Shown in pieces: positions 32,523-36,410 of a stretch of DNA of 41,876 nt. The number at the start of each line of letters is the position of its first letter. Within the stretch, counting starts at the first letter, position 1. The notes beneath the pieces are model-generated. The model saw nothing but the letters and a program-made list of their open reading frames with translations. It had not been told where the DNA came from and did no database searches. Position numbers and translations under genes: made by a program. Where the stretch lies: positions 1-41,876 of the forward strand of contig CALHEE010000007.1 of the NCBI GenBank assembly GCA_938023415.1, written 5' to 3'. Source of the stretch: Minisyncoccota bacterium. GTDB lineage: Bacteria > Patescibacteriota > Minisyncoccia > Minisyncoccales > GBS-2.

Positions 32523-32957
32523 CTACTTAGTTTTGAAAACTCTTTCTTCGAGAATTCTAAACACAGAAAGAATAAGAATAGTCAATAAGCTAGCAAAAAT
32601 AGCTTCAAAATAAAATTTCGTGCCCACCGCAATACCAATGCCAGCAGAAACCCAAAGAGCAGCTGCGGTAGTTAACCCAGCGACTGTTCCCCCTTGATGA
32701 AAGATTACACCTCCACAAATAAAACCAATCCCCATAGCTATTGCCTGAATGATTCTGGTAGGATCGTAATTGATACCGCTTTCTCGATAATATAAAATAC
32801 CCAATTTTAAAGCAATGATGGTAAAAAGACAACTCCCTAAGGTGGCTAAGGTATAAGTCCTCAGCCCTGCTCCTTTTTGCCGATATTCTCTTTCCAACCC
32901 AATTAAAGCTCCCAAAAGGGAAGCTAAGACTAACTGAGTTATTACTTCAATTTCCAT
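32523..32957 (-). CDS. MgtC/SapB family membrane protein
   Basis: 144 aa with four or five helices. Family marks: LLGALIGLEREYRQKGAGLRTY, LGSCLFTI, IIQAIAMGIGFICGGVIF, VAGLTTAAALWVSAGIG. MgtC-like proteins act in Mg2+ adaptation; the C-terminal ACT-like domain of some homologues is absent, as in the short form. A P-type Mg2+-like ATPase is elsewhere in the window (18464-20968). Confidence 0.93.
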   Translation of the reverse strand: MEIEVITQLVLASLLGALIGLEREYRQKGAGLRTYTLATLGSCLFTIIALKLGILYYRESGINYDPTRIIQAIAMGIGFICGGVIFHQGGTVAGLTTAAALWVSAGIGIAVGTKFYFEAIFASLLTILILSVFRILEERVFKTK

Positions 32958-32969
32958 AAATTTTAGTTT

Positions 32970-33233
32970 TTACAACTTATATACCCGATATCCCTCCCTA
33001 ACTTTCTGGTTAACCTTAAGACCAATTGTATCTCCAGCTTTTGCTTTCTTCACCTTTTGGCGATCGATTTCCATGGACTCAACAACCTGTTGAAAATCTG
33101 TTTGGCCACCAACAATTCTAATTGTTTCACCCACCTCCAAACTATCTGATAATTCAATGACCGCCACCCCAATTTTCCCAAAATAATGGGTAACTTTTCC
33201 AATTAATTTTTCTTGGGGAATGATTTCTTCCAT
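32970..33233 (-). CDS. EF-Tu domain-2-like small protein
   Basis: 87 aa beta-barrel protein: LIGKVTHYFGKIGVAVIEL, LEVGETIRIVGGQTDFQQ, VVESMEIDRQKVKKAKAGD and IGLKVNQKVREG. It matches the stand-alone translation-factor domain 2 family of unknown role. It is 7 nt after the LOG gene. Confidence 0.85.
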   Translation of the reverse strand: MEEIIPQEKLIGKVTHYFGKIGVAVIELSDSLEVGETIRIVGGQTDFQQVVESMEIDRQKVKKAKAGDTIGLKVNQKVREGYRVYKL

Positions 33234-33240
33234 AAAATTT

Positions 33241-33804
33241 TTATTTTTTCCCGACCTTTAATTTTTCCTTTTTAATTAATTCGATTAGTTTTCTCACTAG
33301 TTTTTTCGGATCTCTTTCAAAAATAATCTTTTTTACCCCCCGATAAGGACCAGTGACAATAAATCTAATTTTGTCAGCGGTCCCACCACTCCCTTCTAAA
33401 ACACCAATAGGTTTTTGGATCTCAAAGGCGGTAGCAAATTCGTGTAATGTCCCCATCCTTCCACAAATGATAATCACCCCATCAGCTGACTTGGTCATTA
33501 TCACATTTCTACCAGCATAATCTGCTCCGGTATAAACGATGACATCAAAGACATCGGTAGGAAGTTTATACACCTTTATGTGTTCGGCCTCAGAGGCAGC
33601 TGGAGAAAATCCAATGCTAAAACCACCAGCTTCTTTAAAGGCTTTGGCCACTAAATAAGGAACACCGGTGGTTGCTCCGGTAAGTAAATTACAGTTTTGG
33701 CGGGCAATTTCACGGCCTAATTCTCTAGCTAATTTTTCAATTTTTTTTCCGCAGTGATGAACTACGGCCGAACCAGAAACAGCGATTTCAAATTTTTCAA
33801 ACAT
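33241..33804 (-). CDS. LOG/TIGR00725-like Rossmann-fold protein
   Basis: 187 aa. IAVSGSAVVHHCGKKIEKLA, LLTGATTGVPYLVAKAFKEAGG, VIVYTGADYAGRNVIMTKSADG and IICGRMGTLHEFATAFEIQK. The LOG family binds nucleotides; some members are cytokinin-activating phosphoribohydrolases, but the characteristic PGGxGTxxE is changed to CGRMGTLHE. First gene of a seven-gene operon. It starts about 19 nt beyond the terminator of the structured RNA at 33823-33986. Confidence 0.85.
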   Translation of the reverse strand: MFEKFEIAVSGSAVVHHCGKKIEKLARELGREIARQNCNLLTGATTGVPYLVAKAFKEAGGFSIGFSPAASEAEHIKVYKLPTDVFDVIVYTGADYAGRNVIMTKSADGVIIICGRMGTLHEFATAFEIQKPIGVLEGSGGTADKIRFIVTGPYRGVKKIIFERDPKKLVRKLIELIKKEKLKVGKK

Positions 33805-33822
33805 ATTTTAATTTTATCAAAC

Positions 33823-33850
33823 TAAAAACGGGAAGTAAATTTTTTCCCGT
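33823..33850 (-). terminator. Intrinsic terminator of the structured RNA
   Basis: Minus strand ACGGGAA (33844-33850), 9-nt loop, TTCCCGT (33828-33834), then TTTTAG. It begins only 4 nt after the closing helix of the RNA. Confidence 0.85.
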
Positions 33851-33986
33851 CTTTAGTGAGGGGAATAACCTTAATGCCTTTGACTGGTAAGCTTAATTTC
33901 TGGCCGGACAATAGCCAGACGAGATCTCTCCAGTCTCTAGCACTAAGATTACTTGTCCTTTGGGCATATAGCCCGCACCCCTCACT
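33823..33986 (-). ncRNA. Stand-alone structured small RNA (about 164 nt)
   Basis: Bounded by a promoter (33992-34019) whose predicted start falls on the first base of the closing helix, and by the terminator at 33823-33850. Closing helix AGTGAGGGG/CCCCTCACT (33978-33986 with 33855-33863, 9 bp). Inside: ATGCC/GGCAT, GACTGG/CCAGTC, CTGGC/GCCAG with loop TATTGTCCG, and GGACAA that can pair to that loop (pseudoknot). An alternative GGGC/GCCC hairpin lies in the 5' bubble. Size and closing-stem/bubble layout recall 6S RNA, but conserved bases of 6S, SRP, tmRNA or RNase P are not recognised. Confidence 0.75.
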
Positions 33987-33991
33987 TTTAA

Positions 33992-34019
33992 ATTTTAATC
34001 TCTAAAAATGCCATGTCAA
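33992..34019 (-). promoter_or_regulatory. Consensus promoter of the structured RNA
   Basis: Minus strand TTGACA (34014-34019), 16-nt spacer, TAAAAT (33992-33997). The -35 begins 2 nt after the 3' end of tRNA-Arg. Confidence 0.85.
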
Positions 34020-34020
34020 G

Positions 34021-34092
34021 TGCCCTCGAGAGGAGTCGAACCTCTATCTCAAGCTCCGGAGGCTTGCGTTTTATCCGTTAAACTACGAGGGC
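34021..34092 (-). tRNA. tRNA-Arg (anticodon CCG)
   Basis: 72 nt. Acceptor GCCCTCG/CGAGGGC, TA, D arm GTTT/AAAC with loop AACGGATA, anticodon stem CAAGC/GCTTG with loop CTCCGGA (anticodon CCG), 4-nt variable loop, T arm AGAGG/CCTCT with loop TTCGACT, discriminator A. CCA is not encoded. It reads CGG. Its first ten bases are also the last codon and a half plus stop of the methyltransferase gene. Confidence 0.95.
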
Positions 34093-34790
34093 TTTTCAGC
34101 AATTAAGTAGATATTTGTCCTCGGATCTTTACCGCCTCGCCAACTCTTTTTTATTTTAAAACCCACCTGGGCAACCAATTTTTCTAGCCCTCTCTTTGTA
34201 AAGCAATGAAAATATCTCTCGACCAAAATTTCCCCTTTTGGGTTTCGCCAAGGAAGAAAGATGTCAAAAAAGTCCAGTTTTGATTTCCTAATTAATTTTA
34301 AAAAAGTATACTTTAAAAGTAAAACCAAGCCTTTTTTCCTTTTCCAAAAATCCCAAACCCTTAAAATCAGAGTTCCTCCTGGTTTCAATACTCTCTTTGC
34401 CTCTTTCAAATATTGGATACGAAAATCTCTCGAGGGAAGATGATGCAAAACAGAAATACTGTAAACTTTATCGAAGAATTGATCAGGAAAGGGTAATTTA
34501 AGAGCGTTTCCAACCTGAAAATTTCCCTCAGGAAATTCTTTTTTCGCAAGCTCAATTAACTTTTCAGAAAAATCAATCCCGTAGTATTGGACATTTTTTT
34601 CCTTTAAAACCTTAAATAACCTTCCATTTCCACAACCTGAATCTAAAATTTTTTCCCCGGAGAGGGCATAATCTGCTAATTCTTTGATATCTTCTGATAA
34701 AAAAGCTCTTGTTCTTGCATATTCTAAGGCGATAAGGTTATAATCTTTTTGAGTCTTTTCAAGTAAATACTCAGCGTAGTTTTTTTCCAT
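34083..34790 (-). CDS. Class I SAM-dependent methyltransferase
   Basis: 235 aa. Motif I ILDSGCGNGRLFKVL, motif II YGIDFSEKLIELAKKEFP, then VGNALKLPFPDQFFDKVYSISVLHHLP and the motif KRVLKPGGTLILRVWDFW. The arrangement, with the LLKYTFLKLIR..DIFLPWRNP insertion, resembles the TRM9/ALKBH8-type tRNA wobble-uridine methyltransferases (inference). That would fit its divergent neighbour elp3, which makes the first step of the same wobble modification. The last two codons and TAG lie inside tRNA-Arg. Confidence 0.85.
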   Translation of the reverse strand: MEKNYAEYLLEKTQKDYNLIALEYARTRAFLSEDIKELADYALSGEKILDSGCGNGRLFKVLKEKNVQYYGIDFSEKLIELAKKEFPEGNFQVGNALKLPFPDQFFDKVYSISVLHHLPSRDFRIQYLKEAKRVLKPGGTLILRVWDFWKRKKGLVLLLKYTFLKLIRKSKLDFFDIFLPWRNPKGEILVERYFHCFTKRGLEKLVAQVGFKIKKSWRGGKDPRTNIYLIAEKPS

Positions 34791-34793
34791 AAT

Positions 34794-36410
34794 ATGATTG
34801 AAGAAAAAATAATTAGGGAATTGACTAAAGAAAAACTTAAAAATCAGAGTGATTTAGATTCTTTTAAAAGAAAAATTGCCAAAAAATATAAAATTCCTTG
34901 CCCAAGCAACACCTGGCTTTTTAAAGCTTATCACAAATTGATAAAAGAAAAAAGGATAAAAAGAAAACAGAAAATAGAAGAATTATTGAAAACTAGACCT
35001 GTAAGATCTCTTTCTGGAATTGTCAATATTACTGTCTTAACAAAACCTTATCCTTGTCCAGGCCAATGCATTTTTTGTCCTTTAGAAAAGGAAATTCCAA
35101 AGAGTTATTTATCGGGAGAACCAGCGGTCGAGCGGGCAAAAAATTTAAAATACCACCCTTATCTCCAAACTAAAAAAAGAATTGAGGTCTTAAAAGAAGA
35201 AGGTCATCCTACCGACAAAATTGAATTAAGGATTGTAGGGGGAACATTTAGTTTTTATCCCCTCAAATATCGTCTCTGGTTCATTAAGGAATGTTTCCGA
35301 GCTGCCAACACCTCAAAAATGTCGCACATTAAAAAGCCATGGCAAAATAATGTGCAACAATTGTGGGAGGAATTAGTTAGTGAGCAGAAAAAAAATGAAA
35401 AGGGAAAAAATAGAATCGTAGGAATTTCGATTGAGACGAGGCCAGATTTTATAAATGAGGAGGAAATTAAAATCTTGAGAAAGCTGGGGGTGACGATGGT
35501 TGAAATGGGAGTGCAAACAATTTTTGATGATATTTTAGAGAAAAATAAAACAAATTTGACTCAAGAAAAAATTGCTCGGGCAACAAAATTATTAAAAGAC
35601 GCTGGCTTTAAAGTTTTGTATCATTTAATGCTCAATTTGCCAGGCTCTGATTTAAAAAAAGATTTTGAGTGTTTCAAGATTATTTTTTCTGATGAAAGAT
35701 TTAAACCAGATTGGATAAAAATTTATCCAGTGGCAGTAACAAAAGAAAGTCAACTCTTTAGAATGTGGCAAAAAGGAAAATATCAACCATATCCTGACAA
35801 AACACTCATTGAGCTTTTAATTAATATCAAAAAAATTCTCCCTTATTGGGTAAGGGTGGCAAGAATTTTAAGAGATATTCCAGCTCAAAAAATTGAGGCA
35901 GGTTGTAAAATTTCAAATTTGAGAGAAGTGGTAAAAAAGGAAATGGAAAAGAGAAATTTAAGGTGCAAATGTATTAGATGTCGAGAAATTAGAGAGAGAT
36001 ACAATCGAAAAGAGAAGATCTATTTATTCAGAGAAGATTACGAAGCTTCCGGTGGAAGCGAGATATTTTTGAGCCTTGAAAACAAAAATAGAACCAAATT
36101 ATACAGCTTCTTAAGATTAAGAGTCCCAAAAATCTCAGAGGAGAAATCTTCGGCAATTTTTCCGATCTTAGAAAACTCAGCAATAATTAGAGAAATTCAA
36201 ACTTTTGGCGAGCAGGTTCCAATTGCTCAAAGAAAATTAGCTCCCCAACATCGAGGTTTAGGAAAAAAATTGATAAAGGAAGCGGAAAAAATAAGTAAGA
36301 AGGAATTTGGATTAAATAAAATCGCAGTAATTTCAGGAATAGGAGCGAGGGAATATTTCCGAAAATTTGGATATAAATTGAAAGAAACTTATATGGTTAA
36401 ATTGCTTTAA
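34794..36410 (+). CDS. Elp3 tRNA wobble-uridine carboxymethyl transferase
   Basis: 538 aa. N-terminal RNA-binding helices (1-70), radical SAM cluster C88-x3-C92-x2-C95 (CPGQCIFCP), VGGTFSFYP, SIETRPDFI, GVQTIFDDIL, the Zn/Cys region (LRCKCIRCREIRE, about 383-395) and a C-terminal GNAT domain (QVPIAQRKLAPQHRGLGKKL, GIGAREYFRKFGYK). Elp3 puts cm5 on U34 of tRNA using acetyl-CoA. Elp3 without other Elongator subunits is known from archaea and some bacteria. The start codon is only 3 nt from the divergent methyltransferase start. Confidence 0.95.
   Translation: MIEEKIIRELTKEKLKNQSDLDSFKRKIAKKYKIPCPSNTWLFKAYHKLIKEKRIKRKQKIEELLKTRPVRSLSGIVNITVLTKPYPCPGQCIFCPLEKEIPKSYLSGEPAVERAKNLKYHPYLQTKKRIEVLKEEGHPTDKIELRIVGGTFSFYPLKYRLWFIKECFRAANTSKMSHIKKPWQNNVQQLWEELVSEQKKNEKGKNRIVGISIETRPDFINEEEIKILRKLGVTMVEMGVQTIFDDILEKNKTNLTQEKIARATKLLKDAGFKVLYHLMLNLPGSDLKKDFECFKIIFSDERFKPDWIKIYPVAVTKESQLFRMWQKGKYQPYPDKTLIELLINIKKILPYWVRVARILRDIPAQKIEAGCKISNLREVVKKEMEKRNLRCKCIRCREIRERYNRKEKIYLFREDYEASGGSEIFLSLENKNRTKLYSFLRLRVPKISEEKSSAIFPILENSAIIREIQTFGEQVPIAQRKLAPQHRGLGKKLIKEAEKISKKEFGLNKIAVISGIGAREYFRKFGYKLKETYMVKLL

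Follow-up and report, generated by a model that had tools for sequence, protein, structure and literature searches.

A small stand-alone RNA of Paceibacteria carries two drifting palindromes and probably pairs with itself

Natural RNA homodimers are, to our knowledge, few, and most have been inferred from single structures. Among bacterial noncoding RNAs, OLE, GOLLD and ROOL are homo-oligomeric; L9.3 of OLE switches among the palindromic tetramers GGCC, GAUC and AGCU, and covariation between adjacent bases has been an argument for intermolecular pairing in both OLE and GOLLD (PMC12286853). Here we describe an RNA gene on the reverse strand of a 41,876-nt stretch of Minisyncoccota bacterium DNA (contig CALHEE010000007.1; the whole stretch is hereafter “the window”). 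Like OLE, GOLLD and ROOL, the RNA stands alone, has an elaborate fold and shows putative intermolecular pairing backed by adjacent-base covariation. Unlike those RNAs, which are several hundred nucleotides long, it measures ∼130 nt, carries two 8-nt self-complementary segments in dozens of variants, shares no sequence or model similarity with them (no Rfam match to OLE, ROOL or GOLLD was found for the RNA) and occurs almost wholly in one patescibacterial order. It also resembles the HIV-1 dimerization initiation site and further RNA dimers formed by palindromes (PMC7357161), in that homodimerization through a short self-complementary segment is proposed. In dimers of the HIV-1 type, however, the palindrome belongs to one messenger or genome, where it sits in a hairpin loop, whereas the two palindromes of the new RNA are the strands of one internal loop, on either side of a hairpin, and vary in sequence throughout a clade. 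The raiA motif, or ModT, is similar in being compact and stand-alone, with a closing helix P1, a long-range loop pseudoknot, a housekeeping-type promoter and a terminator, but differs in length (∼210 nt), in its eight helices and two pseudoknots of other topology and in its distribution in Bacillota and Actinomycetota (RF03072; PMC11751092, PMC11706538). The RNA is best read as working like a homo-oligomeric RNA while belonging to no described family.

The two segments, termed pal1 and pal2, flank the pseudoknot hairpin P5 at two fixed places (Table 1) and were absent from a first-pass annotation of the window, which had described a structured RNA of no recognized class at this position. Palindromes at the first site in homologues include GCAGCTGC, GGATATCC, GGAATTCC, AGGTACCT, GACGTC, GAAGCTTC and GTATATAC, among others, and those at the second site include ACTTAAGT, CTTTAAAG, CTCGAG, CCTAGG and CAAGCTTG. 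When 71 homologues were scanned, Watson-Crick self-complementarity of at least 6 nt reached 83% at the site 5′ of P5 and 45% at the 3′ site, against no more than about 13% elsewhere, and 28 (pal1) and 23 (pal2) distinct fully self-complementary 8-mers were counted. The sum of pairs exceeded that of dinucleotide shuffles given the same search freedom at both sites (pal1: 242 versus 75 ± 8, z ∼21; pal2, including G-U pairs: 209 versus 93 ± 9, z ∼13), but because the shuffles keep shared ancestry in place these z-scores are not probabilities, and the variety of different palindromes is the stronger argument. Of the 71 homologues, 69 have a pal1 or pal2 that reaches 6 nt or more, and the same length is reached at one site or the other in 14 of 15 more divergent homologues, unused when the pattern was first noticed. 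In one lineage (loci L058, L060, L062, L065 and L084) pal2 is lacking and pal1 is 12 nt long instead (e.g., AAAGGTACCTTT and AAAGGCGCCTTT; with one G-U in L084), as if one longer interface had replaced two.

Covariation was counted as cells changed on both sides and compared with shuffles and with slid partner positions in alignment A5, which holds the 71 distinct homologues and was made by a model blind to palindromes. In the pal1 columns 83.5% of cells were paired, and 77 cells had changed on both sides (shuffled: 32 ± 4, none of 500 reaching this count; with the partner slid: 7 to 27). The two adjacent central columns of pal1 interchange among GC (22), UA (21), CG (6) and AU (5). Neighboring bases of a single molecule are unable to pair with each other, so the covariation of these columns must be intermolecular, and the homologues show the intermolecular-only covariation that marks a homo-oligomeric noncoding RNA. 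Such covariation in self-complementary segments could serve as a search rule for further self-pairing RNAs. Where palindromes are imperfect, G-T accounts for 13 of the interior mismatches and A-C for two; the symmetry of a DNA site is blind to this difference, and selection therefore acts on the RNA. It is very improbable that the palindromes are instead DNA-level sites within an RNA gene, whether for binding of a dimeric protein or for restriction. Many of the 8-mers do coincide with common restriction sites, and a dimeric DNA-binding protein would need self-complementarity, but the letters drift freely while the symmetry stays, which a single DNA-binding protein would not tolerate, the preference for G-T is a strand-specific RNA signature, and the palindromes sit at fixed distances in a covarying RNA fold. 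Comparison of the homologues clearly indicates that the self-complementarity of pal1 and pal2 is under selection at the RNA level. Evolution itself would then report an intermolecular interface, at two places and through dozens of compensated variants.

We consider it quite probable that this new class of noncoding RNA homodimerizes via two palindromic helices around P5. In each molecule P1, P2, a long P3, P4 and P5 form, with the loop of P5 folding back onto the GGACA between P2 and P3; with two copies present, pal1 would pair with pal1 and pal2 with pal2. The 3′ end of pal1 in copy A would lead into P5 of A and back into pal2 of A, and the P4 strands of copy B would join the two new helices at those same ends, so that each end would become a four-way junction (pal1, P5 of A, pal2 and P4 of B) and the dimer a closed, twofold-symmetric body resembling a double-crossover tile. 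We infer pairing in the cell, a closed dimer in preference to a chain, and a scaffold role; most likely the RNA acts as a scaffold or a protein-binding dimer. Several points weigh against this proposal. By themselves, two helices of 8 bp have little stability (about −4 to −15 kcal/mol), and they may thus require help from the pseudoknot, from Mg2+ or from a protein. Eight base pairs between crossovers do not make a whole or half A-form turn, so the closed geometry would be strained unless the linkers help, and the P5 loop would meet the P2/P3 junction only if the conserved AAGGAG/GA loop that separates P3 from P4 were sharply bent. In the window pal1 and pal2 partly pair in cis in the minimum free energy fold (GAG with CTT), and pal2 is missing in some homologues. 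It is also worth noting that the two-copy cofolding program cannot represent a pseudoknotted double junction.

An open chain, oligomer or condensate, in which pal1 joins one neighbor and pal2 another, seems unlikely as an alternative to the closed dimer. Two separate twofold interfaces can yield chains or dihedral rings, as in GOLLD and ROOL (PMC12286853), and the loss of pal2 in one lineage shows that the interfaces are separable. Nonetheless, short linkers connect pal1 and pal2 to the one hairpin that they flank, strand tracing closes the two four-way junctions without clash, and the lineage with a single interface has a longer one, as expected of a dimer. We also advance, tentatively and leaning slightly against it, the idea that the RNA assembles without protein into a twofold double-crossover particle through its drifting palindromes, such that lineages recognize only their own RNA; if true, this would be a natural RNA with built-in self-recognition. 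Its small size (∼130 nt) puts the RNA within reach of direct biophysics and cryo-electron microscopy.

The fold within one molecule is supported by counts of the same kind. For P1, P2, P3, P4, the pseudoknot and pal1 together, 271 cells of A5 had changed on both sides, versus 100 ± 12 in shuffles and 44 to 72 with slid partners, and RNAalifold, unaided, predicts P1, P2 and P3, where 15 of 17 pairs show compensatory changes. Covariation thus supports P1 to P4 and the GGACA/TGTCC pseudoknot, which takes the form GGCC/GGCC, GGGC/GCCC, GGATAA/TTATCC, GGCAGA/TCTGCC or GGGTC/GACCC in other lineages. Conserved pairing in homologues, named by the first-pass annotation as the check on its proposed RNA, was therefore found as covarying helices. 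The loop pairing TTGTCC/GGACAA, there only a possible pseudoknot, proved real and conserved, as did two of its internal helices, GACTGG/CCAGTC (P4) and CTGGC/GCCAG (P5). A third helix, ATGCC/GGCAT, was unsupported and is rejected: homologues form P2 by GGGC/GCCC, with GGCAT paired as part of the long helix P3.

Table 1. Features of the RNA locus and its neighbors in the window
Feature	Coordinates	Strand	Basis or remark
RNA gene including terminator, ∼163 nt	33823..33985	-	Fold stability, homologues
Conserved core of RNA, 130 nt	33985-33856	-	Homologue comparison
Promoter TTGACA-16 nt-TAAAAT	33992..34019	-	TTGACA 34019-34014, TAAAAT 33997-33992
Intrinsic terminator hairpin and T run	∼33853-33824	-	Terminator-like stem and T run in homologues
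P1 5′ strand GTGAGGGG	33978..33985	-	95.5% of cells paired; both sides changed at 7/8 pairs
P1 3′ strand CCCCTCAC	33856..33863	-	Partner of P1 5′ strand
P2 hairpin GGGC-TATAT-GCCC	33962..33974	-	GC/AU interchange in 26 sequences
P3 5′ strand, 15 bp in window	33939..33953	-	Both sides changed at 11/12 pairs; RNAalifold
P3 3′ strand	33864..33878	-	Alignment covariation
P4 5′ strand GACTGG	33930..33935	-	Both sides changed at 4/4 pairs
P4 3′ strand CCAGTC	33882..33887	-	Alignment covariation
P5 hairpin TCTGGC-TATTGTCCG-GCCAGA	33899..33919	-	Predicted fold, homologue comparison
Pseudoknot 5′ strand GGACA, between P2 and P3	33954..33958	-	Pairs with TGTCC
Pseudoknot 3′ strand TGTCC, in P5 loop	33906..33910	-	Pairs with GGACA
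pal1 GAGATCTC, self-complementary 8-mer, directly 5′ of P5	33921..33928	-	Proposed intermolecular helix 1
pal2 TAAGCTTA, self-complementary 8-mer, directly 3′ of P5	33888..33895	-	Proposed intermolecular helix 2
tRNA-Arg(CCG), upstream neighbor in about half of loci	34020..34092	-	Rfam scan, locus comparison
87-aa EF-Tu domain II/Peptidase_U32_C-like protein, candidate partner	32970..33233	-	Weak Pfam matches

To judge from the promoter and terminator conserved with it, the small RNA is an independently transcribed, stand-alone gene. The promoter matches the consensus at 11 of 12 positions and lies 7 nt upstream of the closing helix, and the predicted fold (−75.5 kcal/mol) is far more stable than dinucleotide shuffles (−41.1 ± 3.7 kcal/mol; z = −9.2; 0 of 200 shuffles as stable). 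Among 70 homologues, TTGACN precedes the RNA in 65, mostly 33 to 34 nt upstream of the model start and most commonly with a 16-nt spacer; downstream of the RNA, 68 have a terminator-like stem and a T run. The consensus promoter, closing helix and terminator hairpin of the first-pass annotation were thus borne out, with the closing helix starting at 33985 and listed here at 8 bp. Its proposals of a genuine small RNA gene and of a new RNA of the candidate phyla radiation also hold, given the homologues, the covariation, the conserved promoter and terminator and the lack of an Rfam match. The RNA is best read as trans-acting and as a member of a new noncoding family. At loci L035 and L090, which belong to the same genome, a run of 37 N just upstream of the RNA masks its −10 box and its first helix strand.

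A plain DNA similarity search gave only one clear relative, from the same family; synteny with the LOG-like gene then seeded a covariance model. The same RNA was found upstream of the LOG-like gene in genomes of Candidatus Paceibacterota, Nealsonbacteria and Parcubacteria, in each case with TTGACA before it and a terminator after it, and model R1 was built from seven homologous loci. With R1, 86 of 246 sampled genomes of one Paceibacteria order were found to carry the RNA, always in single copy and across 22 families. A second model, R2, used for searches beyond the order, recovered one clear copy outside it (genome G313, 90.7 bits) and no other in samples of 384 class and 380 phylum genomes, under strict filters that make absence no proof. 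Under laxer filters, a set of 30 genomes from the order, most of them picked because they lacked the RNA, yielded only G003, already known from the R1 search, and perhaps G052; the weak matches in G437 and G052 show the conserved features poorly and were left uncounted. No hidden relative was found upstream of the EF-Tu-domain-II-like gene in 20 genomes without the RNA, and a pattern scan of viral contigs gave no match. As sampled, the pattern is that of a vertically inherited RNA of part of one order and not of a mobile element. These genome-reduced, uncultured bacteria thereby gain a conserved noncoding RNA of their own.

An Rfam 15 covariance-model scan of the window returned tRNA-Arg only. 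The RNA itself, searched at E ≤ 10, gave chance matches and nothing relevant; likewise, the seven homologous loci gave nothing relevant and twenty further loci only tRNAs. No Rfam family was therefore matched above its gathering cut-off, including 6S, raiA and the signal recognition particle (SRP) RNA, three of the families that the first-pass annotation had named first for comparison, and no description of the RNA was found in the open-licence papers searched. Genome-wide searches for 6S, raiA and small SRP RNA were negative as well. That annotation's suggestion of a divergent 6S RNA, which would bind RNA polymerase, is extremely improbable. The two share similar length, paired ends and an independent gene, and the order has no clear 6S RNA. 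However, RF00013 does not match the RNA even at permissive thresholds, a pseudoknot and palindromes stand where 6S has its open-promoter-like bubble, and the RNA was not found in about half of the order's families. RF00013 recovered the controls but had no match in the window genome, and of 40 genomes sampled from the order 39 likewise gave none. Genome G025, which also carries the new RNA, has a sub-threshold 6S-like match (G025:C17:6834-6953; 28 bits, E = 1.8 × 10−4). raiA, suspected from the closing helix and pseudoknot, was ruled out by model and topology; RF03072 had no match in the window genome and none above cut-off in five relatives. RF00169 (small SRP, the only SRP model used) did not match the RNA and found none in 40 genomes of the order (G000 to G039), with or without the RNA, but gave a match for 13 of the 14 genomes used as controls. 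Perhaps the SRP RNA of the order has diverged strongly, or perhaps the order lacks one.

The placement of the RNA between tRNA-Arg and the LOG operon, as first described, holds in about half of the homologues. Its most constant neighbor is not the LOG-like gene but the gene for the EF-Tu-domain-II-like protein, which lies downstream on the same strand at 66 of 72 loci, with or without a LOG-like gene between, and whose product is perhaps a partner of the RNA. It is possible, but rather unlikely, that the two form a ribonucleoprotein and that an RNA dimer acts on translation or on expression of that gene, a reading compatible with the dimer. Besides its position, the protein has a domain related to parts of EF-Tu and of tRNA-modifying U32 proteins and often a lysine-rich tail. 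Nevertheless, 206 of 246 genomes were found to encode the protein, in most cases with no RNA detected, and so it cannot depend on the RNA; RNA binding, if any, would be a lineage-specific use. Furthermore, a terminator of its own follows the RNA, and at many loci the protein gene has promoter-like sequences of its own. At L096, L072, L112 and L114 the homologues of the 87-aa protein have lysine-rich N-terminal tails, long and histone-H1-like in L096 and L072. Shortly before the start codon of the gene lies a conserved AAAGGTCG element (∼33255-33262 in the window, minus strand), often just after a −10-like box. The element occurs whether or not the genome carries the RNA, AAGGTC being present in 48 of 66 RNA loci and in most RNA-lacking loci (L139 to L158) too. 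A wider gene block, comprising Elp3, a SAM methyltransferase, tRNA-Arg, the RNA, the SLOG-family (LOG-like) protein, the EF-Tu-domain-II-like protein and MgtC (32523-36410 in the window), is kept across distant families.
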